64,000 bases of DNA from an uncultured bacterium (GTDB taxonomy: Bacteria; Cyanobacteriota; Vampirovibrionia; Gastranaerophilales; Gastranaerophilaceae), in NCBI GenBank assembly GCA_902775025.1, contig CACYKP010000008.1, forward strand, positions 1-64,000. Direction: 5' to 3'. The notes beneath the pieces were generated by a model. That model worked only from the letters and a program-made list of their open reading frames with translations, did no database searches and was not told the origin of the DNA. Below are positions 5,884 through 16,053 of the stretch, one piece after another (within the stretch, counting starts at the first letter, position 1; each line of letters begins with the position of its first letter). Both the position numbers and the translations under genes were made by a program.

Positions 5884-8800
5884 TTATCCCTCATGATATT
5901 TTGTTAAAAGCGTTTTGACCTGTTGAGTAAATTCTTCCTGATTAAAGTTTTCTTTACATATATAATAGTCTACATTTAAGCTAGATAATCTTTCCATTGC
6001 AATATTTTTTGCAATAGAACTCATTACTATAATAGGAATATCCGCATACATTTCATCTGCCTTAAGCATACTTACAAACTGATACCCATCAATTTGAGGC
6101 ATTGTTAAATCCGTAATAATTAAATCGTAATGATTCATCTTAAGTTTTACAAAAGCTTCTTCCGCTTCTGCAACAACGTCAACCATAAAGCCTGAATTAA
6201 GTAAAATATTTTTTATCATTGTTCTGGTAGTTATAGAGTCATCAAGAATAAGTATTTTTTTATAAGACAATATGTCTGCAGGCAAAAGATTTTGGTTTGC
6301 AGCCGAATTTATTGCTTTATTAAAGTCATAATGAAGTATGTCTTGCATGTTTAAAATCAAGCAAAGTTCACCTGATGCAAGGTTTGTAATTCCTGATATA
6401 TTTTTGACTTTATATAACGGTGCCGACAATTTTTTCTGTAATATATCCTGATCGCCCAAAAGTTTATCTACCACCAAGCCGACAGTTTTTTCATCGGATT
6501 CAATAATCAATATCGTTTCCTTTTCCCCCCTCGGTTCAGGTGTCATATCCAAGATATCTGACATATAGTAAAGCGGAATAATATTTCCGTTATAAACAAT
6601 AGAACGAATTCCGTTATTTGTTTTTATTTCAGATTGCTTCTTAACAATAAATGTTGTAATAACTTGAATAGGTATCGCAAAAGTCTGCCCTGAAATTTTT
6701 ACTAAGAAAACTCTTAAAGTTGTTAATGTAACCGGAATTTCTATATGAATACAACTTCCTTTACCAAATTCCGATATTACTTTTACCTTACCGTTAAGTT
6801 GAGATATTTTTGTTTTAACTACATCAAGCCCAATACCTCTTCCTGAAATGCTTGTAATTGAATCACCCGTAGTAAATCCTGGCCAGAAAATAATATTCAT
6901 AATTGCTTCATCCGTCATTGAAGCAATATCTTCTTTTGTTAAAAAACCTCTTGAAACAGCCCTATCTTTGATTTTTTCCAGATTAAAGCCCCTTCCGTCA
7001 TCTGCTACATCAATGATTACAGTATTATCATCTTGTTTTGCAGAAAGCATAATTCTTCCTACAGGATCTTTTCCTGCAGAAATTCTTTCTTCCTTTGTTT
7101 CAATACCGTGGTCAATTGCGTTTCTGAGTATATGAATAAGAGGAGTTTTAATCTCTTCAATAATCTTTTTATCTGCACAAGTATCCTTACCTTCTATCTC
7201 AAAATCAATATCTTTACCTTTTTCGCTTGCTATATCACGAACCATTCTAGTAAAGGAATTAAATACTGTAGAGATAGGAAGTACACGAATATTTTTAACC
7301 ATTGACTCCATCTCATCAATAATTAATCTCATTTTCATATCGTCTTCTTTTGAAGAACGATATAGTGAGTTCAAATCATATATGGTTCTTGAGACATTTT
7401 GCGTAATATCAGACAGCAGCGAGAAAACCTGCTTTACAAATGCAGTTGTGTATTGTTCGGGATTTTCTGCCTGTAAATATTTACGATTATAGTATCTTAA
7501 ATAATTTGATGTTTTTAATAAATCCTTTTGACAATTTTCATTTGCATTTTTTATTGAATCAATTTTATCAAGATTTTTTTCGGTTTTAATCTTTGTAATA
7601 ATAAGCTCGCCAAGCTGATTAACAAGCAAATCAAGCTTTTGAGCATTAACGTGAAGGGTTTTAATCTCTGTTGAAGAAGAAGATTTATTAGTTTGAGCTG
7701 TTTGAGCTGAAAGCGTTTTAATCTCATTAACACCTGAGTCTTTTTTGTAGCTTAACTCAAGCAATTGTTTCATAATTTCCAGTTGTTGAACAATCAAATC
7801 GCTGTCAATGTTTTCATTTGGAGAGGCGCAATACTCAATCCCGCTTTTTAATGTTTGAACCATTTGTTCTTCAAGTTGTACAGAGTTTTCAACAACAAAA
7901 TCCAAGATTTCTAATATTGCATTTAATATTTCCAATATGTTGGAATCGTCAACATCTTCTTTGAGTTTTAGTATATCTTCTTTAATTTCTGTTGTATAAA
8001 CACTGCTACCTTGCAGCATAGACATTTTTTCAGCAACATCAAAAAATGAAAACCCCTTAGTTTCTGTTTGAATGCAAGAAGTAGTAAATTTAGATGCTGC
8101 AGAACTTAGTTCATTTCTTAATTCCAAAATTTCACTAACGGTAAGCGTATTCGTTCCATTCATTACAAAATCAATTTTTGTTATGATATTTTCTAAAGAA
8201 GATTTAATCTCATACATATCAGTATCTTTAAAATATGCATAAATTTTTTCGACTTCTTCTTTTAGAATAACCGTATCTTGAGACTCTTCTTCAGGAACAA
8301 TACTGTCTATTATTTCAAAGCAAGAATTAAATCCTAAATTAATCTCTTCTTGATGTGCTGATAGATTTTTTTGAGCATCATCGCTAATAGAACCTATTTC
8401 TATATTTGTTTCTCCAATTTTAGGCAGATTAAATTCACTCATATCGATTCCAGGTATATCGAGCCCCGGAATTTCCAGCCCCGGAATTCCGCCTTGAGAA
8501 TTGTTCGGCAAAATATCATTTTGACTACCAACCTCTATATCAAGAATGTATTCCAAATTTGAAATAGCATCCTTATAACGTTCATCAATAATTTCTCTGC
8601 CGTTTTTTATTGATTCCTGTATATAATCAGAAACTATCTCTAACGAACGGGAAACTAAATCTATAATACGATACTCTAATGTTAATTTAGAGTCATTAAC
8701 GGCGTCAAAAATATCTTCCATTTTGTGAATTAAATCTTGAATGTTGTTAAAGCCAACCATCCTTGTTGCGCCCTTCAAGCTATGAAGGTCGCGGTAGACT

Positions 8801-8934
8801 TCTGCAATAATTTCTTTATTGGCAGGTGTTTTTTCAAGAGCTTCAAGGTTAGAAAATAACCTTTCGATTATATCATCACTTTCACCTTGAAAAATCTGCA
8901 TTAATTCACTATTATCGTTATTTAAAAAATCCAT
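5884..8934 (-). CDS. Hybrid CheA-type histidine kinase with receiver domain
   Basis: Kinase core of a chemosensory array, 1016 aa. Order of domains: N-terminal HPt with phospho-acceptor H51 in DLHSLKGATRM; a long variable region to about residue 410; a dimerisation region; the CheA ATPase (RNAIDHGIE, ADDGRGF, SGRGIGLDVV); a CheW-like coupling domain; and a C-terminal receiver (about 892-1016) with LILDDS and phospho-acceptor D942 in IITDLTMP. This fused CheA-receiver layout is that of WspE/FrzE. A short 22-base gap separates it from the upstream receptor gene, so the two form an operon. No cheR, cheB or cheY is adjacent. Confidence 0.93.
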   Translation of the reverse strand: MDFLNNDNSELMQIFQGESDDIIERLFSNLEALEKTPANKEIIAEVYRDLHSLKGATRMVGFNNIQDLIHKMEDIFDAVNDSKLTLEYRIIDLVSRSLEIVSDYIQESIKNGREIIDERYKDAISNLEYILDIEVGSQNDILPNNSQGGIPGLEIPGLDIPGIDMSEFNLPKIGETNIEIGSISDDAQKNLSAHQEEINLGFNSCFEIIDSIVPEEESQDTVILKEEVEKIYAYFKDTDMYEIKSSLENIITKIDFVMNGTNTLTVSEILELRNELSSAASKFTTSCIQTETKGFSFFDVAEKMSMLQGSSVYTTEIKEDILKLKEDVDDSNILEILNAILEILDFVVENSVQLEEQMVQTLKSGIEYCASPNENIDSDLIVQQLEIMKQLLELSYKKDSGVNEIKTLSAQTAQTNKSSSSTEIKTLHVNAQKLDLLVNQLGELIITKIKTEKNLDKIDSIKNANENCQKDLLKTSNYLRYYNRKYLQAENPEQYTTAFVKQVFSLLSDITQNVSRTIYDLNSLYRSSKEDDMKMRLIIDEMESMVKNIRVLPISTVFNSFTRMVRDIASEKGKDIDFEIEGKDTCADKKIIEEIKTPLIHILRNAIDHGIETKEERISAGKDPVGRIMLSAKQDDNTVIIDVADDGRGFNLEKIKDRAVSRGFLTKEDIASMTDEAIMNIIFWPGFTTGDSITSISGRGIGLDVVKTKISQLNGKVKVISEFGKGSCIHIEIPVTLTTLRVFLVKISGQTFAIPIQVITTFIVKKQSEIKTNNGIRSIVYNGNIIPLYYMSDILDMTPEPRGEKETILIIESDEKTVGLVVDKLLGDQDILQKKLSAPLYKVKNISGITNLASGELCLILNMQDILHYDFNKAINSAANQNLLPADILSYKKILILDDSITTRTMIKNILLNSGFMVDVVAEAEEAFVKLKMNHYDLIITDLTMPQIDGYQFVSMLKADEMYADIPIIVMSSIAKNIAMERLSSLNVDYYICKENFNQEEFTQQVKTLLTKYHEG

Positions 8935-8956
8935 TTTCTATACTTTTAGACTTTTA

Positions 8957-10036
8957 TTATGCATTATTTTTTTTAGAAGACTTTATATCATTTGATAAAT
9001 TGTTAAGCTTAGATATTTTCTCAGCATGGCTATTTAAAAACTGCATAAAATCAGAAGATATTGTTACCATCTCTTCATCTATACTGCCCAGTTTTTCTAT
9101 AATATCACTTTGCTTTTGAGCATTGTTGTTAATGGCTTCTAACGAATCTAGAACTTCTTTAATTAATACAAGTAAAGTTTCAGAATCAGAAGAAAGAGTA
9201 TTTATATCTCTTACAACAGACTCAATTTCCTTAGTGCCTTCTTCTGTAGCCATTACGGTAGAGTTAGTTGTGTATTGTATATTGCTTGTAAGCGACGTAA
9301 TTTTTGTAATTGCCTGCTTCGATTCATCTGCAAGCTTTCTGATTTCACCTGCAACTACTGCAAAACCCTTACCATGTTCACCGGCTCTTGCCGCTTCAAC
9401 TGCGGCGTTAAGTGCAAGCATATTGGTTTGTTCAGCGATATCATCAACAACACTGATTGTACTTCCGATTTGTTGAGAATGTTCTGAAAGTTCAAGGATT
9501 AATTCTGCAATCATTTGAATTTTTTGTCTTAAAACAAGCATTTTTTCTGCATTAGCAGAAATAAAATCATGCTCCTTCTGTGAAAAATTTATCGATTGGC
9601 TTATTTGCTTTTCTGTATTTTTTGACATTGTAACAGAATCTTCTGATATAACTTTTAATTTATCTAACAAATTTGACATTGCTTTATTGTTAGAAGATAT
9701 TGTTTCAAATTTTATTTTTTGGTTATTAACAGATTCCAAAACTTGTTCTGTTGCTGCAAGAATTGATGCGGATTGTTGATTAAAAGATTGTTGTATAATT
9801 TTTGCAATCCAATGTTTTGTAATAAAAATTGACAAAAAATTAATAACTGTAATCACAGTAATAAATATGAAGATATCGTATGGTGCAATTTTCTTTGTAA
9901 TTGCAAAAATTAAAAATAATATGATTGATAAAATAAAAACACCTATATCGATAAAACATTTTATATTAAATTTTTGTTCTAAATCAGAATGCCATTCTCT
10001 ATCCACTTCTGCTCTCCTATAGTTTTTTTTAAACAT
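8957..10036 (-). CDS. Methyl-accepting-type chemoreceptor without periplasmic domain
   Basis: Chemoreceptor of 359 aa feeding the adjacent CheA. Two closely spaced membrane segments at about residues 28-47 and 53-72 leave only a few residues outside, so there is no periplasmic sensor. The rest is a long coiled coil with the signalling hairpin tip [19 protein letters not shown] and [16 protein letters not shown]. No HAMP domain is obvious. The signal must come through the membrane, the cytoplasmic linker or partner proteins. Adaptation by methylation cannot be assumed because no CheR/CheB lies nearby. Confidence 0.93.
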
Positions 10037-10091
10037 TTATTATATAATTATCTTATACTAAAACTTGAGAAATTGGAATATATTAATAAAT

Positions 10092-11558
10092 ATGACTGTT
10101 AAAATTTTATTGGTAGAAGATAGTGATTCACAGCGAGAATTTTTAAAAGAGGGGCTTTCTAACCACGGATTTGAAGTAGAAATTGCAAGAAATGGTGCAG
10201 AAGGATACAAAAAACTTTTTGAGTATGTTCCGGACTTGGTCATTTCTGATATAATGATGCCCGCAATAGACGGTTACCAGCTATGCAGACTAATAAAAAA
10301 TAAAGACGAAACCAAAAAAATTCCGGTTATACTTTTAACCATGCTGGATAAAAAAATAGATAGTTTTTGGGGGAAAAAGGCAGGAGCACAATTATTTCTG
10401 TCAAAATCAATTGATATAGAGGAGCTTATTAAAAATATTAATGCGACATTAAGACGGTATCCCGTAACAGCAGAGTATAAGGCAGCAATGACCGCGCAAA
10501 TCTCAGGAGATAACTCAGCACAATCACAATTAAATGTAATTCTTAATGATTTATTGTTAAAATCAGTTTTTGCCAATGAATTTCGTAATTTGAGCGACTT
10601 TTTAAATTATGAAAGAATTTTAGTAGAAAAGTTATTTTCTTTGTTGAGTTCTTTTGTAGAATACCACGTTGCAGGGGTTTATTTTGCATCGCCGGATAAC
10701 TTTTCAGAAAATATTTTATACATAGATACTTTAGGAAGAAATCTTTCGAAAAATCTTCTTTCCGATATCCAGTATGATTTTTTTAGAAAACTGGAAGAAA
10801 TAAAACCCATTAGAGACAACAAGTTTGAAGTTGTAAGAATGTTATTGGGAAAAGAAATGGATTATTCTTTTAACGATATGAAGTCAAAAATTATCATCCC
10901 TTTGGTATTCGATAAAAAACTTATCGGCGGAATTTGTTTCTATACTCGTTCCGATACAGATTATGCATCATTTAGATTCTTTGATATTATGATTAGCGAA
11001 CTTCTTGCTATCTTCAAGATGAAATATCAATACACCGAAAAAGAATTTATGTCCGTTCTTGACGGTTTGACTGGACTGTATAACAGACGCCAGTTTGAGC
11101 TTGGTTTGGAACAAGAATTCAATCGTACAAAACGTCATCCTGCTGATTTTAGCTTGGCAATATTAGATATCGACTTCTTTAAAAAGGTTAATGATACATA
11201 CGGGCATCAATACGGTGATTATGTTCTAAAAACAGTGTCCGACTTAATGAAATCGTCTTTCAGAAAAACCGATTTGTTATACAGATACGGCGGTGAAGAG
11301 CTTGTAATGATAATGCCTGAAACAAACATTGAAGGTGCATTAATTCCGGTTCAAAGGTTGCGCAAGGCTATAGAAGATTACGCTTTTGAATATAATGGTG
11401 TTAAAGCAAAAGTAACTGCAAGTATAGGTTTAACTATGAACTTCATTGAGTTTAAGAACGCTACTGAGCTTCTTAAATCCGCAGACGAAGCTTTGTATAA
11501 AGCTAAAGAAAGCGGCAGAAACAGGGTAATTATTCACGAAGGAAATGCTCATGATTAG
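10092..11558 (+). CDS. Response regulator with GAF-like linker and GGDEF diguanylate cyclase
   Basis: Likely output of the array: phosphorylation controls cyclic di-GMP synthesis. Residues 1-120 form a receiver (LLVEDSDS, phospho-site D53 in VISDIMMP). A GAF-like region spans about 170-330, and the GGDEF domain runs from about 330 to the end. The active site reads GGEEL at 400-404, and an RxxD inhibitory site (R391-D394) stands five residues before it, so activity and product inhibition both look intact. ATG 10092 was chosen; a TTG at 10065 would add nine residues. It overlaps the tandem CheW gene by 8 bp. Confidence 0.93.
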   Translation: MTVKILLVEDSDSQREFLKEGLSNHGFEVEIARNGAEGYKKLFEYVPDLVISDIMMPAIDGYQLCRLIKNKDETKKIPVILLTMLDKKIDSFWGKKAGAQLFLSKSIDIEELIKNINATLRRYPVTAEYKAAMTAQISGDNSAQSQLNVILNDLLLKSVFANEFRNLSDFLNYERILVEKLFSLLSSFVEYHVAGVYFASPDNFSENILYIDTLGRNLSKNLLSDIQYDFFRKLEEIKPIRDNKFEVVRMLLGKEMDYSFNDMKSKIIIPLVFDKKLIGGICFYTRSDTDYASFRFFDIMISELLAIFKMKYQYTEKEFMSVLDGLTGLYNRRQFELGLEQEFNRTKRHPADFSLAILDIDFFKKVNDTYGHQYGDYVLKTVSDLMKSSFRKTDLLYRYGGEELVMIMPETNIEGALIPVQRLRKAIEDYAFEYNGVKAKVTASIGLTMNFIEFKNATELLKSADEALYKAKESGRNRVIIHEGNAHD

Positions 11559-12561
11559 TGATATAAGTTATATTGAACAGAAAAAAAATACTCATCTGTG
11601 CTTTAAGCTGGGAACAAGTCAGTATGCCGTGAATACGTCTAATGTACTTGAGATAATGAAGCTCCCTGCTCTTGATTATCCTCAAAAGCTGCCCAATAAT
11701 ATCATTGGACTTTTAAAATATAATAATTTTGTGATTAACGTAATTGATATACGTTTTTATTTGAATATTGAAGTTACACCATATACTGCAAATAGTGAAC
11801 TGTTAATCGTAAAGACGGACGAAACAATTTTCGGTATTATAACAGATAAGGTTATTGGGATTGTTCCGTTTGAGTCTTCAAGAATTGATACAATACCTTT
11901 TGTTGATAATAAAACGATTATTGATTCAATTTATAAAGAAAACCAAAATACAGTATTTATTATAAACATATATTCAATAGAAAATTTGTTAAAACAAACA
12001 GTCAACGTAGATAATGTAGATATTCAAGCACTTTTTCCAAGTGATGCAGCTTCTGTTTCCATAATGAAACATAGAATGCAGGAAATTACAGAGAAATCAA
12101 CTCTTTCCCTAATGAGTGAAGGTTTACATACAAAGAAAAAATTAATATCTTTTAACTTGAATAATGATTTATACTGCATAGAATTGGATTATGTAAAAGA
12201 GGTTTTGAAAGATACAACAATCACAAATGTACCTGGTACTCCTGATTTTGTGGAAGGAATTATGAATTTGCGAGGAGATTATATAACTGTAATCAATATA
12301 AAGAAATTTTTAAATATCAATAAAGAAGATAAAAAAACTGATATAGAGAAAAACCCTGTTATTATAGTTAATGCAAATGATATGGTACTGGCTTTTTTAA
12401 TTGATAAAATTAATGAGTTATTTGAAGTGCAGGAAGATAAAATTATGGGTTCAGGCGAAAGCTATTTTGCAAGTGAATTTATACTGAACGATGTTCCGTA
12501 CACAATTCTTAACATAGAGAAAATATTCACCGACAAGCGCATTATCGTTACTGATATGTAA
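11551..12561 (+). CDS. Tandem CheW-domain coupling protein
   Basis: Adaptor joining receptors to CheA. Two CheW-like domains are present: a divergent one at about residues 10-150 (VLEIMKLPALDYPQKLP) and a canonical one at about 190-335 (VKEVLKDTTITNVPGTP followed by GIMNLRGDYITVINIKKFL). Start at ATG 11551, which has GAAGGAA 7 bases upstream; ATG 11545 sits directly on the Shine-Dalgarno. Translation is coupled to the cyclase gene, whose stop overlaps. The two domains could replace the separate WspB and WspD couplers of Wsp systems. Confidence 0.88.
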   Translation: MISDISYIEQKKNTHLCFKLGTSQYAVNTSNVLEIMKLPALDYPQKLPNNIIGLLKYNNFVINVIDIRFYLNIEVTPYTANSELLIVKTDETIFGIITDKVIGIVPFESSRIDTIPFVDNKTIIDSIYKENQNTVFIINIYSIENLLKQTVNVDNVDIQALFPSDAASVSIMKHRMQEITEKSTLSLMSEGLHTKKKLISFNLNNDLYCIELDYVKEVLKDTTITNVPGTPDFVEGIMNLRGDYITVINIKKFLNINKEDKKTDIEKNPVIIVNANDMVLAFLIDKINELFEVQEDKIMGSGESYFASEFILNDVPYTILNIEKIFTDKRIIVTDM

Positions 12562-12613: not shown

Positions 12614-15046
12614 ATGAAGCATTATACTAAAAGAACAATAGCGTTGTGTTTAGCATCGTTAGTAACTGTTGTGGGGGCTTTTGGAGCAGAAAATTATCAA
12701 AATAATTTAATGTCCTTGAAGATAAATAATGGTTCCGGCGGTTATGTTAGTATGACTGCGTATACAGAGAAACCATATAACCTTCCGATAAAAATAATGA
12801 GAAATGATGCTAATACTTATATATTAGTATTCCCCGGAACGGGTTGCGAAGCAAAACTTCCTAAACTTTCCAATTATGAAAACATTGAGAGTATTGGTAT
12901 ATCAACTTTTCCATATACTTATGAAAGAGAAGGATACACACAAATTACAATAAAAACTATTGGTGCACCTAACCTAAAAGCAAGCACTATGCTTTTTATA
13001 CCGGAAAAAAAGTCTGATATAAATGAATCTAAAGTAATTGAAGATAAAAAAGTTAATGAACAAAAATCCAGCTACTGGGATTCACATGAGGTTAGCGAGA
13101 CTTCATCTGAAGAATCAAGAGAAGTAAATAATGCAAGAAATATTACAACATCTAAAACACAAATAGATAAAACCGTCGAGGACAATAATACAAATAAAGC
13201 TCCTACAGAAACTGCCAATAACACTGCACCTCAGTATAATCCGGAGGACTATAATAACCTAGGCTCTGTATCCGAGCATACCACAGCAATAATATGCGTA
13301 TTTGTTCTTATTTTGTTAATCGGCTTTATAATGATGGTCGGCAAGGATAAAATGGCAGGTGTTGTAGGTGATAATAATGAATTTGACTTGGAAGATCAAG
13401 AAGATAAAAAAAACAAAAAAACATCAAAAACAAAAAAAATACGCAAAACAATTAACAAATTAGATAAAACGTATCAAGCATCCAGACATAAAGAAAGCAA
13501 TATCGTACGTAACACAGAATTTGCTGATGATATTGAACAAGATAAGCCGCAGATGGAAGAACAAGTTGATATAACTCCTCAAGAAGTAGTAGATTTAGAT
13601 GTTCTTTATCAGGAAAAAACTCTGCAAAAAGAAGCAGAAACAGATGATTTAGCTGAATTATTAAATGAATTTACTTTTGATGAAGAGCCTGAAGTTTCGG
13701 AGGAAACCCCCTTCAATGAAGAATTGTATCAAGAAATAATTAACAATAACAATATACAATTTTCTAAGTCTGATATTGATAGAATAAACCAGTTAATGCA
13801 ATTAGAAATAACGCCGGAAACGATTGATAATCTCAATCAATATATAAAAGCTGTTGCATCAAAGCCTAAAAAGCAGACAAAATCACAAATTTTAAATAAT
13901 CTTTTAACAACATATTCTATATCGCAAAATATCAGTTTTTCCAAAGAAGATGTAGAAGCAATGAAAAAGATTATGAATGTTGAGTTGGACAGTTCATTTA
14001 TAACTGATTTATCAACAAATCCTGCCAGAGTAAAAGAAGTTGAAGAAGAACTTGCTAAACAACATACTAAACCGCATAAAACCTCAGAGGTTTTGACATT
14101 AAATGTAAAGAATTTGCTACCGAATTTATCGCAAGAACTGGAAAAACAGGGTAACAAACCAATAGTATCTGAAGTTAAAAATGATGTAGTATATTATAGC
14201 GAGGGGTATGAAGTCAGCAAATTATCCGTTTCAGAGGAATTAAATAATATTTCTACAGCATTACAATCAAAAGATGATAATGAATATCGTCCTTCTGATT
14301 TCTTGCCAATAGTTGAAAACGGGTATGAGTATTCGACACTTTCAATAAAAAATGAACTTCCTGATTTAGAGGATGTAAAAGCTCATCCTGAAAAATACGC
14401 AGAGAAAAAACAAGAGAAAGTAGAAGTTGATGAAAATGCTCTATTGAACAGCATTTCTAATGTTACATTTAAACCTTTTTATACTGATGTTCAAGAAGAG
14501 TCAAATCAATTTGAGGAATTTGAAATAATAAATTCGGAGTCTGAACAAAACATCGCCGAACAAAGCCATAAACAAGCCTCTTACACTAAAGAGGACAGGG
14601 TTAATGACGATGCAGCAAGACTTTTAAAATTAATTGAAACGCAACAAACGCAACGTGCATTAAAAAAACATGCTTTAGAAGAAGCTAGGGAATTCAAAAA
14701 AGAATTACAAAAAGCATCAAAAAGAAATGAAGAGGTTAAAGATTCTCCACAGATTATTTTTGAGTTTGAAGGGCAAAAATATATTTTGTTAAAGACTTCT
14801 TCTTGCGGTGATAGTGCAGAATGTAATTTGACACAGTCTGAAGACGGATATAATATTTTCGGATATATAAACGGGAAGCGAAGCATCTTAAAACACTATG
14901 ATTCACTAAAAACTACAAACATGCAATTAAGAGAAAGCGAAAAAGATAACAATGGCAATGTTCAGTATTTAGTTAGAATAGGAAATCATAAATTTATAAT
15001 AAAAATAACGGATGATAACATGGAGTTTGTAATGGATTTATGTTAA
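12614..15046 (+). CDS. Large unknown membrane protein with long acidic cytoplasmic region
   Basis: Not assigned to a family. An N-terminal signal peptide (residues 1-25) is followed by a beta-rich region at about 28-130 reminiscent of an AMIN-type periplasmic domain, a Ser/Thr/Asn-rich linker, and a membrane segment at about 223-242. About 570 residues follow, rich in Glu, Lys, Asn and Gln, and a small folded region ends the protein (about 710-810). The topology suggests a periplasmic sensor or binding head joined to a disordered cytoplasmic arm. The stop overlaps the start of the lipoprotein gene at 15040, so the two are coupled. Confidence 0.7.
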   Translation: MKHYTKRTIALCLASLVTVVGAFGAENYQNNLMSLKINNGSGGYVSMTAYTEKPYNLPIKIMRNDANTYILVFPGTGCEAKLPKLSNYENIESIGISTFPYTYEREGYTQITIKTIGAPNLKASTMLFIPEKKSDINESKVIEDKKVNEQKSSYWDSHEVSETSSEESREVNNARNITTSKTQIDKTVEDNNTNKAPTETANNTAPQYNPEDYNNLGSVSEHTTAIICVFVLILLIGFIMMVGKDKMAGVVGDNNEFDLEDQEDKKNKKTSKTKKIRKTINKLDKTYQASRHKESNIVRNTEFADDIEQDKPQMEEQVDITPQEVVDLDVLYQEKTLQKEAETDDLAELLNEFTFDEEPEVSEETPFNEELYQEIINNNNIQFSKSDIDRINQLMQLEITPETIDNLNQYIKAVASKPKKQTKSQILNNLLTTYSISQNISFSKEDVEAMKKIMNVELDSSFITDLSTNPARVKEVEEELAKQHTKPHKTSEVLTLNVKNLLPNLSQELEKQGNKPIVSEVKNDVVYYSEGYEVSKLSVSEELNNISTALQSKDDNEYRPSDFLPIVENGYEYSTLSIKNELPDLEDVKAHPEKYAEKKQEKVEVDENALLNSISNVTFKPFYTDVQEESNQFEEFEIINSESEQNIAEQSHKQASYTKEDRVNDDAARLLKLIETQQTQRALKKHALEEAREFKKELQKASKRNEEVKDSPQIIFEFEGQKYILLKTSSCGDSAECNLTQSEDGYNIFGYINGKRSILKHYDSLKTTNMQLRESEKDNNGNVQYLVRIGNHKFIIKITDDNMEFVMDLC

Positions 15047-16053
15047 AAAGACTATTAATCCTTTTTATTATTCCATTTATATTGTGTGCCTGTTCACACA
15101 GTAATGTTGAAGAAATTAGTTTTTCTTCTTGGGGTTCCGTTACTGAAACTCAGATATTAAGCAAGTTAATTACCGATTATGAAAAACAAAATCCTGATAT
15201 AAAAATTAATTTTATACATATCCCGCAAAATTATTTTCAAAAAATTCATCTTCTTTTTGCATCTAACACCGCACCTGATATTATTTTTATCAACAATCTG
15301 TACTTACCGCTCTACTCTAATAAATTAGAGGATTTGAGTGCTTATGCTAATGAAAGTTTTTTTTACCCCCAAGCTCTTAAAGCATTGAGTTATAACGGCA
15401 AACTATTTGCTATTCCGAGAGATATTTCAAATTTTGTAATTTATTATAACAAAGATATAACAGGAGAAATTAACCCGAATTGGAATTTTGATGATTTCAA
15501 AAAAATAATAGAAAAATCAACAAACTCAAAGCATTATGGTATAAGTTATGAACGTGATATTTATTGGGCATCTCCTTATACATTAACATTGGGATTTGAT
15601 GAAGGAATAAAATATTATAAAGGAATAGAAGGAAAGTTTGCTCCGACTCCGGCACAAGTGGGAAGTTCGACTCTTGCTCAAATGTTTTTAGACGGCAAAC
15701 TTGGTTTGTACTTGTCAGGAAGATGGATGTACCCAAAAATCAGCGAAACTTCAAAATTCCCTTTTGGAGTTGTAACATTCCCAGGAACAGTCTCTGCTGA
15801 TGCTTCCGGCTGGGCAATATCAAAAAATTCTAAACACAAAGATGCTTCAATAAAATTTGTTAAGTATCTTTCTTCAAAAGAGAGCATAGACTATTTCACT
15901 AAATCGGGTTTAATTGTTCCTGCAAGAATAGACTGTTCTGAAGGAATCAAAGAAAAAGCTTTTTTGGAGGCAATCAAAAAATCTGTTCCCAATAATGTTG
16001 ATAAGAATTTTAGTAAAAAAAGAGATGAATTGAATAAAAAATTGTTTAATTAA
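15040..16053 (+). CDS. Extracellular solute-binding lipoprotein, sugar ABC type
   Basis: Captures a ligand, probably a sugar or oligosaccharide, for an ABC importer. It has an N-terminal lipoprotein signal ending LCAC (lipid-modified Cys at about 18). The body has the family 1 binding-protein pattern: SWGSVTE, INFIHIPQNYFQKI, APDIIFINN, and a C-terminal SGWAISKNSKHKDASIKFVK helix. At 337 residues it is shorter than the usual 400-430. Its ATG overlaps the previous stop. No permease or ATPase is adjacent; the only permease in the window is at 29403. Confidence 0.85.
   Translation: MLKRLLILFIIPFILCACSHSNVEEISFSSWGSVTETQILSKLITDYEKQNPDIKINFIHIPQNYFQKIHLLFASNTAPDIIFINNLYLPLYSNKLEDLSAYANESFFYPQALKALSYNGKLFAIPRDISNFVIYYNKDITGEINPNWNFDDFKKIIEKSTNSKHYGISYERDIYWASPYTLTLGFDEGIKYYKGIEGKFAPTPAQVGSSTLAQMFLDGKLGLYLSGRWMYPKISETSKFPFGVVTFPGTVSADASGWAISKNSKHKDASIKFVKYLSSKESIDYFTKSGLIVPARIDCSEGIKEKAFLEAIKKSVPNNVDKNFSKKRDELNKKLFN

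Follow-up and report, generated by a model that had tools for sequence, protein, structure and literature searches.

What does a chemosensory array control, and how does it behave, when no genes for receptor methylation stand beside it? The question is raised by a stretch of 64,000 nucleotides (nt) from an uncultured member of the Gastranaerophilaceae (assembly GCA_902775025.1, contig CACYKP010000008.1, positions 1 to 64,000 of the forward strand), hereafter the window. Open reading frame (ORF) calls and Pfam matches place four ORFs at positions 5884-12561, arranged as two divergent gene pairs that encode a compact chemoreceptor (methyl-accepting chemotaxis protein, MCP), a hybrid of CheA with a receiver domain (REC), a tandem CheW coupler and a REC-GGDEF diguanylate cyclase (DGC). 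This bears out the Wsp-like list of parts in the original prediction, which had been made from the letters of the window alone. Our reading, to which we give a probability of about 60%, is that these genes form a Wsp-like array of a single receptor type that does not adapt by methylation and drives the cyclase, with the flagellum or attachment as the likely targets of cyclic di-GMP (c-di-GMP). The host genome comprises 2.29 Mb in 88 contigs and is 96.5% complete.

Sequence comparison indicates that the parts required for signalling from receptor through CheW to CheA, and for phosphorylation-controlled synthesis of c-di-GMP, are present and intact. A CheA scan of the GTDB collection returned 68 loci, of which 61 (L006-L066) are treated here as near relatives, defined by a CheA identity of 62-89% and without assignment to a genus. 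The kinase (5884-8934, minus strand, 1016 aa) has Pfam domains Hpt (10-98, with the phospho-site His51), H-kinase_dim (425-480), HATPase (597-736), CheW (742-868) and REC (894-1006, with Asp942), and a helical linker at 185-409. His51, the N-box, G1 and G2 are invariant in all orthologues aligned, 55 from near relatives and 22 from other genera, and the REC aspartate is kept in 55/55 and 21/22, respectively, the remaining sequence having a gap at this position. The model of the Hpt fold matches the CheA P1 structure 1i5n; beyond P1, the N-terminal model consists of helical bundles to which structure comparison assigned no fold, and neither Pfam nor comparison of the structure model gave a match to a P2 domain. 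Both the receiver and the missing P2 are ordinary traits, since a survey of CheA proteins found roughly one in three with a receiver, mostly in classes F3, F5, ACF (alternative cellular function) and Tfp (type IV pilus), and more than half without P2 (PMC10782961; papers given by PMC number are cited for excerpts of their text). In two near-relative loci (L025 and L064) CheA is split into two ORFs, perhaps by a frameshift or an assembly error.

The second pair lies on the plus strand. The cyclase was listed at 10065-11558 (497 aa) with a TTG start; however, M10 is nearly invariant across the alignment, so the probable true start is the ATG at 10092, which leaves a gap of 55 nt (10037-10091) between the start of the receptor gene and that of the cyclase gene. 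The cyclase carries the active site GGEEL and the inhibitory site (I-site) motif RxxD. Its REC Asp62 and Lys114, the arginine and aspartate of the I-site and the letters GGEE are invariant in 54/54 near-relative and 17/17 other cyclases, while the fifth letter of the active site varies (L, M, F, I or V). An AlphaFold2 model (mean predicted local distance difference test score 87.5, predicted template modelling score 0.58) has the order receiver, helix, alpha/beta domain at 183-297, signalling helix and GGDEF. We read the predicted middle domain as GAF-like; a GAF assignment by Pfam was rejected, with an E value of 0.25 only. Foldseek ranked PleD first, followed by WspR and DgcR, with whole-length template modelling scores of only 0.31-0.37 of the query, which implies that the individual domains agree with those of these proteins and that their arrangement differs. 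By sequence, the closest solved relatives are PleD, then DgcR, then WspR. The coupler gene (11545-12561, 338 aa) overlaps that of the cyclase by 14 nt, and its two CheW matches (11596-11973 and 12142-12534) lie within one protein, which is the fusion of couplers that had been predicted.

All four genes were found by tblastn in 55 of the 61 near-relative loci, and in the other six a contig ends inside the array. According to the ORF calls in these loci, the receptor and CheA genes lie on one strand in 56/56 and the cyclase is divergent from the receptor in 54/54. It is thus hard to believe that the cluster is a decaying, functionless remnant of a chemotaxis system. Such a view could draw on a published account in which gut types have no chemotaxis genes (PMC3787301) and on the absence of CheB from the genus, and it is opposed by this conservation of the genes, by the invariant catalytic residues and by the 72-89% identity of the cyclase across L006-L066.

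The receptor (8957-10036, minus strand, 359 aa) lies 22 nt from the kinase gene. It has transmembrane segments at residues 31-47 and 55-71 by hydropathy, an MCPsignal domain at 171-322 and no Pfam match to HAMP. The original prediction of virtually no periplasmic domain stands: the loop between the two segments is about seven residues long, and it spans 4-17 residues in 69/82 compact receptors, these being the ones in which two transmembrane segments were called. From the tip residue E214, 143 residues lead back to the end of the second segment and 145 forward to the C-terminus, a hairpin length that presumably places the receptor in the 40H size class. The glutamate and arginine of the tip are invariant in 55/55 near-relative and 26/26 other receptors. 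The receptors of Wsp and of Halomonas cluster 2 are likewise given as 40H (PMC5907407).

Could such a receptor be methylated? In all, 82 compact receptors were scored (that of the window, 55 from near relatives and 26 others) and compared with all 10 long receptors in the relatives' regions, one of which (L143) comes from a CheB-negative genome. The strict methylation consensus comes from work on E. coli and is not universal. By this measure, the motif occurs in 1/82 compact receptors, that of the window not included, as against 9/10 long ones, and in 5.6% of shuffled compact sequences. A relaxed motif occurs in 19/82 compact receptors, compared with 27% of shuffles; it is thus at chance level and gives no sign that these receptors are methylatable. 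Together with the missing CheB, the lack of a motif above chance upholds the prediction of an array that does not adapt by methylation.

The inventory of the genome is less simple. CheB has no match anywhere in the host genome and none in the 65 genomes of the same genus, within a survey of 144 related genomes that also holds 21 from other genera of the family; CheC, CheD and CheX were not searched. A joint absence of CheR and CheB had to be rejected, as five proteins of the CheR family (PF01739, above cut-off) are encoded on contigs C25, C21, C22, C6 and C14 (L001-L005), none of them the contig of the array. The prediction that methylation genes are lacking therefore holds for CheB and fails for CheR in the form of these divergent, unlinked proteins. 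Their genes each stand singly, one of them next to a degenerate REC-GGDEF-like gene. An array that adapts after all, by means of one of these proteins and either without CheB or through CheC/CheD-type or other means, is rather improbable. The five proteins can indeed be aligned with CheR over the FFR and S-adenosylmethionine-binding regions, and the unsearched CheC, CheD and CheX leave room for other routes. However, they have no Pfam match to CheR_N or TPR, score 55-99 bits against 194 for the CheR of a relative's che operon, and lie away from the array, and the window's receptor lacks the strict site consensus. Their identity to bona fide CheRs is 21-28% in the longer alignments, and among the five it is 26-37%. 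They are probably methyltransferases with other roles.

Besides the cluster, no other array was found in the host genome, which has one MCP in total and three CheW domains, every one of them inside the cluster; thus, there is no second CheA carrying such a domain. Across the genus, an MCP was found in 63/65 genomes, in single copy in all but two. The genome also encodes flagellar components (FliF, a FliI-type ATPase, FliL, FliM, FliN, FliP, FliR, FlhA and FlhB by Pfam, and FliG; flagellin and MotA/B were not searched). In the genus, FliG was found in 64/65 genomes, FliM in 61/65, and MshEN and PilZ in 64/65 each. An MCP was found in 10 of the 21 genomes from the family's other genera and FliG in 7; every FliG-positive genome is one of the 10, and none is one of the 11 that lack an MCP (Fisher p 0.001, not corrected for kinship).

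This co-occurrence of flagellum and array in the family, and the near-universal FliG, could point to a kinase of flagellar chemotaxis that mainly controls rotation through a CheY-like protein encoded elsewhere, with the cyclase as a side branch. The motor argues otherwise. CheY docks on FliM through an N-terminal peptide, LSQxEIDxLL. FliM was matched in 105 genomes and taken from 103 (G049, cut by a contig end, and G105, split, were left out), and 94 sequences were counted after nine proved unreadable. The docking peptide is absent from all 60 genomes of the genus that could be read, the window's own included; outside the genus it is present in 19/22 readable CheB-positive genomes and in 4/12 CheB-negative ones (Fisher p 0.005). 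The FliN-type protein encoded beside FliM (173 aa, one C-ring domain) is not FliY-like. A candidate CheY does exist, in that only one of the 17 receiver matches in the genome is a short stand-alone receiver (131 aa), but its gene is close to a helix-turn-helix (HTH) gene and an MshEN-T2SSE gene and away from both the array and the flagellar genes. With a CheA that has no P2 match besides, we consider rotation control by this kinase unlikely. The original prediction had named as its undoing the presence of cheR, cheB and cheY elsewhere, with a conventional motility system using this CheA. The flagellar genes are partly that case; the rest of it did not appear, since there is no CheB and no second CheW-bearing CheA, the stand-alone receiver is unlinked and FliM is without the CheY peptide. 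Contig C48 (L148), which carries this receiver, holds within about 13 kb a GGDEF gene, the receiver gene, the HTH gene and the gene for a 461-aa protein with MshEN and partial T2SSE matches.

In the reading we favour, a membrane-anchored hairpin, stimulated through its two transmembrane segments or by membrane or cytoplasmic partners, would control CheA, and CheA would phosphorylate the REC-GGDEF protein so that c-di-GMP rises. The receiver of CheA may act as a phosphate sink or reset. As there is no methylation feedback, the output would track the present level of the stimulus and not its change over time. With only the transmembrane segments exposed to the membrane, the input might be membrane state, surface contact or a partner protein, and what the array signals is probably a steady condition of the cell or membrane, not a gradient to steer by. 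These steps from receptor to c-di-GMP draw on the intact parts and on the precedent of Wsp, and are more secure than those that follow, which draw on gene neighbourhood and motor anatomy. The c-di-GMP produced might act on the flagellum and on MshEN-bearing ATPases of the pilus type, in which case the array could decide between swimming and settling rather than steer. An action on the flagellum is suggested by the FliM without a CheY peptide and by a PilZ gene that directly follows flhA. The PilZ protein (197 aa, with RxxxR and DxSxxG) begins 33 nt after flhA, and the adjacency was found in 13/13 genomes of the genus examined (13 of the 65, mostly those that ranked highest for PilZ) and also in G075, G079 and G080. 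A search of the PDB with this protein gave two chance-level matches only, with E values of 0.15 and above.

An extended form of this account is tentative and may well prove wrong. It holds that an entire flagellated genus of gut-dwelling Gastranaerophilales runs its flagellum without CheY, having lost both conventional CheY/CheR/CheB chemotaxis and the FliM peptide, and that the ancient compact array, with no need of methylation or of an external sensor domain, took over by way of c-di-GMP and a brake formed by the flhA-linked PilZ protein.

The target could instead be the pilus. On this possible, though somewhat doubtful, alternative, c-di-GMP from the array would bypass the flagellum and act on MshEN-domain ATPases of type IV pili or secretion systems, in the manner of a Wsp- or Tfp-like surface programme. 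The host genome has two MshEN matches, one of them the 461-aa MshEN-T2SSE protein, MshEN is nearly universal in the genus, and Wsp provides a precedent for surface sensing in which the transmembrane regions are suspected (PMC8846402). Yet MshEN, like PilZ, was found in all 21 family genomes from other genera, so it is kept in all 11 that have no MCP and can do without the array, whose own distribution in the family is closer to that of FliG than to that of MshEN. The genome search proposed with the original prediction returned flagellar, PilZ, MshEN and five CheR-fold genes, and no cheB, with pilus genes other than MshEN not searched.

Several observations weigh against the reading of a non-adapting array that drives the cyclase and, through it, motility or attachment. 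The receptor might in principle be a substrate for the five CheR-fold proteins; a relaxed methylation motif is present at residue 317 of the window's own receptor, and one long receptor (L138, 702 aa) also lacks the strict motif. With six further GGDEF matches in the genome, the array does not have c-di-GMP to itself. Three family genomes (G066, G076 and G085) have an MCP and no FliG. FliM and CheB do not match perfectly, as 3/22 CheB-positive genomes lack the docking peptide and 4/12 CheB-negative genomes outside the genus keep it; a perfect co-loss of the two, suggested by an early sample, was rejected on these exceptions in the wider set. Orthologues of the flhA-linked PilZ protein (47-50% identical) are kept in four flagella-less relatives, G065, G070, G078 and G081, and a purely flagellar role for it was rejected for this reason. 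Lastly, the cyclase is not beside the array in 7 of 24 regions from other genera, five of which belong to FliG-positive genomes (G069, G083, G087, G090 and G093). A strict tie between cyclase and flagellum, which the FliG-less G066 and G085 without an adjacent cyclase might have suggested, is contradicted by these five and also by G098, which has an adjacent cyclase and no FliG or FliM match.

Two side observations belong with these genomes. The same four flagella-less relatives (L271-L274) have no FliG or MCP match and still carry the flhA-type PilZ orthologue, which suggests a second role for it. In the FliG-less G066 (L114) and G085 (L122), the receptor, CheA and tandem CheW are kept with no cyclase alongside.

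How old is this arrangement? Elsewhere in the order, in further genera and families, the regions that surround short receptors show this receptor-CheA pair again, in many cases together with the cyclase and the tandem CheW. Of 27 such regions, one (L130) is without the compact array and two (L128 and L140) break off at the receptor; in the 24 that have room, a cyclase is beside the array in 17. In a tree of 40 CheA cores, the 28 compact kinases form one clade (support 100/100), separate from four conventional kinases taken from relatives; L137 was too short and was left out of the 41 rows, no classified ACF reference was included, and the long branches of the rows outside the compact clade drew a warning from the tree program. 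Families within the clade broadly follow taxonomy. Plasmid-borne CheA hybrids were tried as Wsp references and dropped, two records being unannotated and the branches long, and no class was assigned. Half of the compact regions (13/26) belong to genomes that also carry CheB, and the conventional operons in relatives (L144-L146) contain CheR, CheD-like or CheX-like genes, REC-CheB and long receptors (CheD and CheX labelled by eye, CheR confirmed by Pfam for L144). As judged from these relationships, the array is old in the order, and the simplest history would be that the order had both arrays and that the window's genus lost the conventional one.

Among known systems, the closest in content is Wsp of Pseudomonas (WspA-B-C-D-E-F-R, ACF class), with which the window shares the MCP, the CheA-REC hybrid, two CheW units and a REC-GGDEF cyclase with GGEE and RxxD. 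Unlike Wsp, it has no CheB (WspF); CheR (WspC, with TPR) is absent from the cluster, and none of canonical type was found in the genome. Because of these two absences we do not regard the array as a member of Wsp. Its receptor also has no periplasmic sensor domain to speak of, its couplers are fused where the CheWs of Wsp are separate proteins, its genes form two divergent pairs, and its cyclase has an extra middle domain, whereas WspR consists of one receiver, a helix and a catalytic domain (PMC5907407). The same source describes the Wsp-like chemosensory cluster 2 of Halomonas, which shares with the window an MCP, CheA-REC, two CheW-like proteins and a receiver-GGDEF cyclase, but retains CheB2, CheR-TPR and CheY2 and has a cyclase with Hpt and two receivers ahead of GGDEF. 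In P. aeruginosa, CheA also controls c-di-GMP and thereby flagellar motility through Pch; that CheA, however, is part of the chemotaxis machinery and acts on a phosphodiesterase, not on a cyclase (PMC3861689).

The CheA hybrids of other Cyanobacteriota (Pix/Pil, Tax) belong to the same phylum and also form arrays without CheR and CheB. In the control genome of Synechococcus elongatus, CheW and MCP were matched and CheR and CheB were not, so the absence of the latter two is not in itself new. The outputs of the Pix/Pil and Tax systems are PatA/CheY-type regulators of type IV pili, whereas the output neighbour in the window is a cyclase, in a genome with flagellar genes. The excerpts of PMC5812497 contain nothing on CheR or CheB in cyanobacteria. 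As for the lineage itself, Di Rienzi et al. reported flagella and stated that gut types lack chemotaxis genes (PMC3787301), and a termite member is reported to have flagellar and chemotaxis genes (PMC5877343). No description of such an array was found in the literature searched, whose coverage leaves out most subscription journals; within that literature, it is apparently new to see a near-bare receptor combined with a cyclase as the output in a host that has flagellar genes.

The core of any chemosensory array (receptor tip, CheW, and CheA P3-P4-P5) is all present in the cluster. A review defines chemosensory systems by six proteins, CheR and CheB included (PMC8846402); if the extended account above is correct, the four genes would make up a minimal chemosensory organelle that does not adapt and that falls outside this usual definition. 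The array also raises the question of what use an array without memory is. According to the same review, what WspA senses and how it does so is a mystery, and the transmembrane regions are suspected. An array of transmembrane segments and signalling hairpin, with no strict methylation motif, isolates what a receptor may sense without a periplasmic domain. It would also refine the statement on gut types (PMC3787301), in that a genus without CheB keeps an apparently intact array wired to c-di-GMP.

Some neighbouring genes deserve mention. Several further genera and families in the order encode an HD-domain protein of about 197 aa 3' of cheA (L136:3418-4014, L138:3714-4307, L142:11649-12245 and similar), and that of L136 matches Ppx-GppA domain III and HD; no such gene stands beside cheA in the window. 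On the other side, 52 nt 3' of the tandem CheW gene, a possible operon neighbour (12614-15046, plus strand) encodes an 810-aa protein that matches no Pfam or NCBIfam family. Read by eye, it has an apparent signal peptide, an exported part, one transmembrane segment and a long cytoplasmic tail. Its gene overlaps that of a lipoprotein-like extracellular solute-binding protein (SBP_bac_1 by Pfam; 15040-16053, plus strand), also a possible operon neighbour. The exported protein and the lipoprotein may be partners of the array. Among the 61 near-relative loci, with those cut by contig ends counted, tblastn covers at least 20% of the 810-aa protein in 38 and at least 60% of the solute-binding protein in 33.

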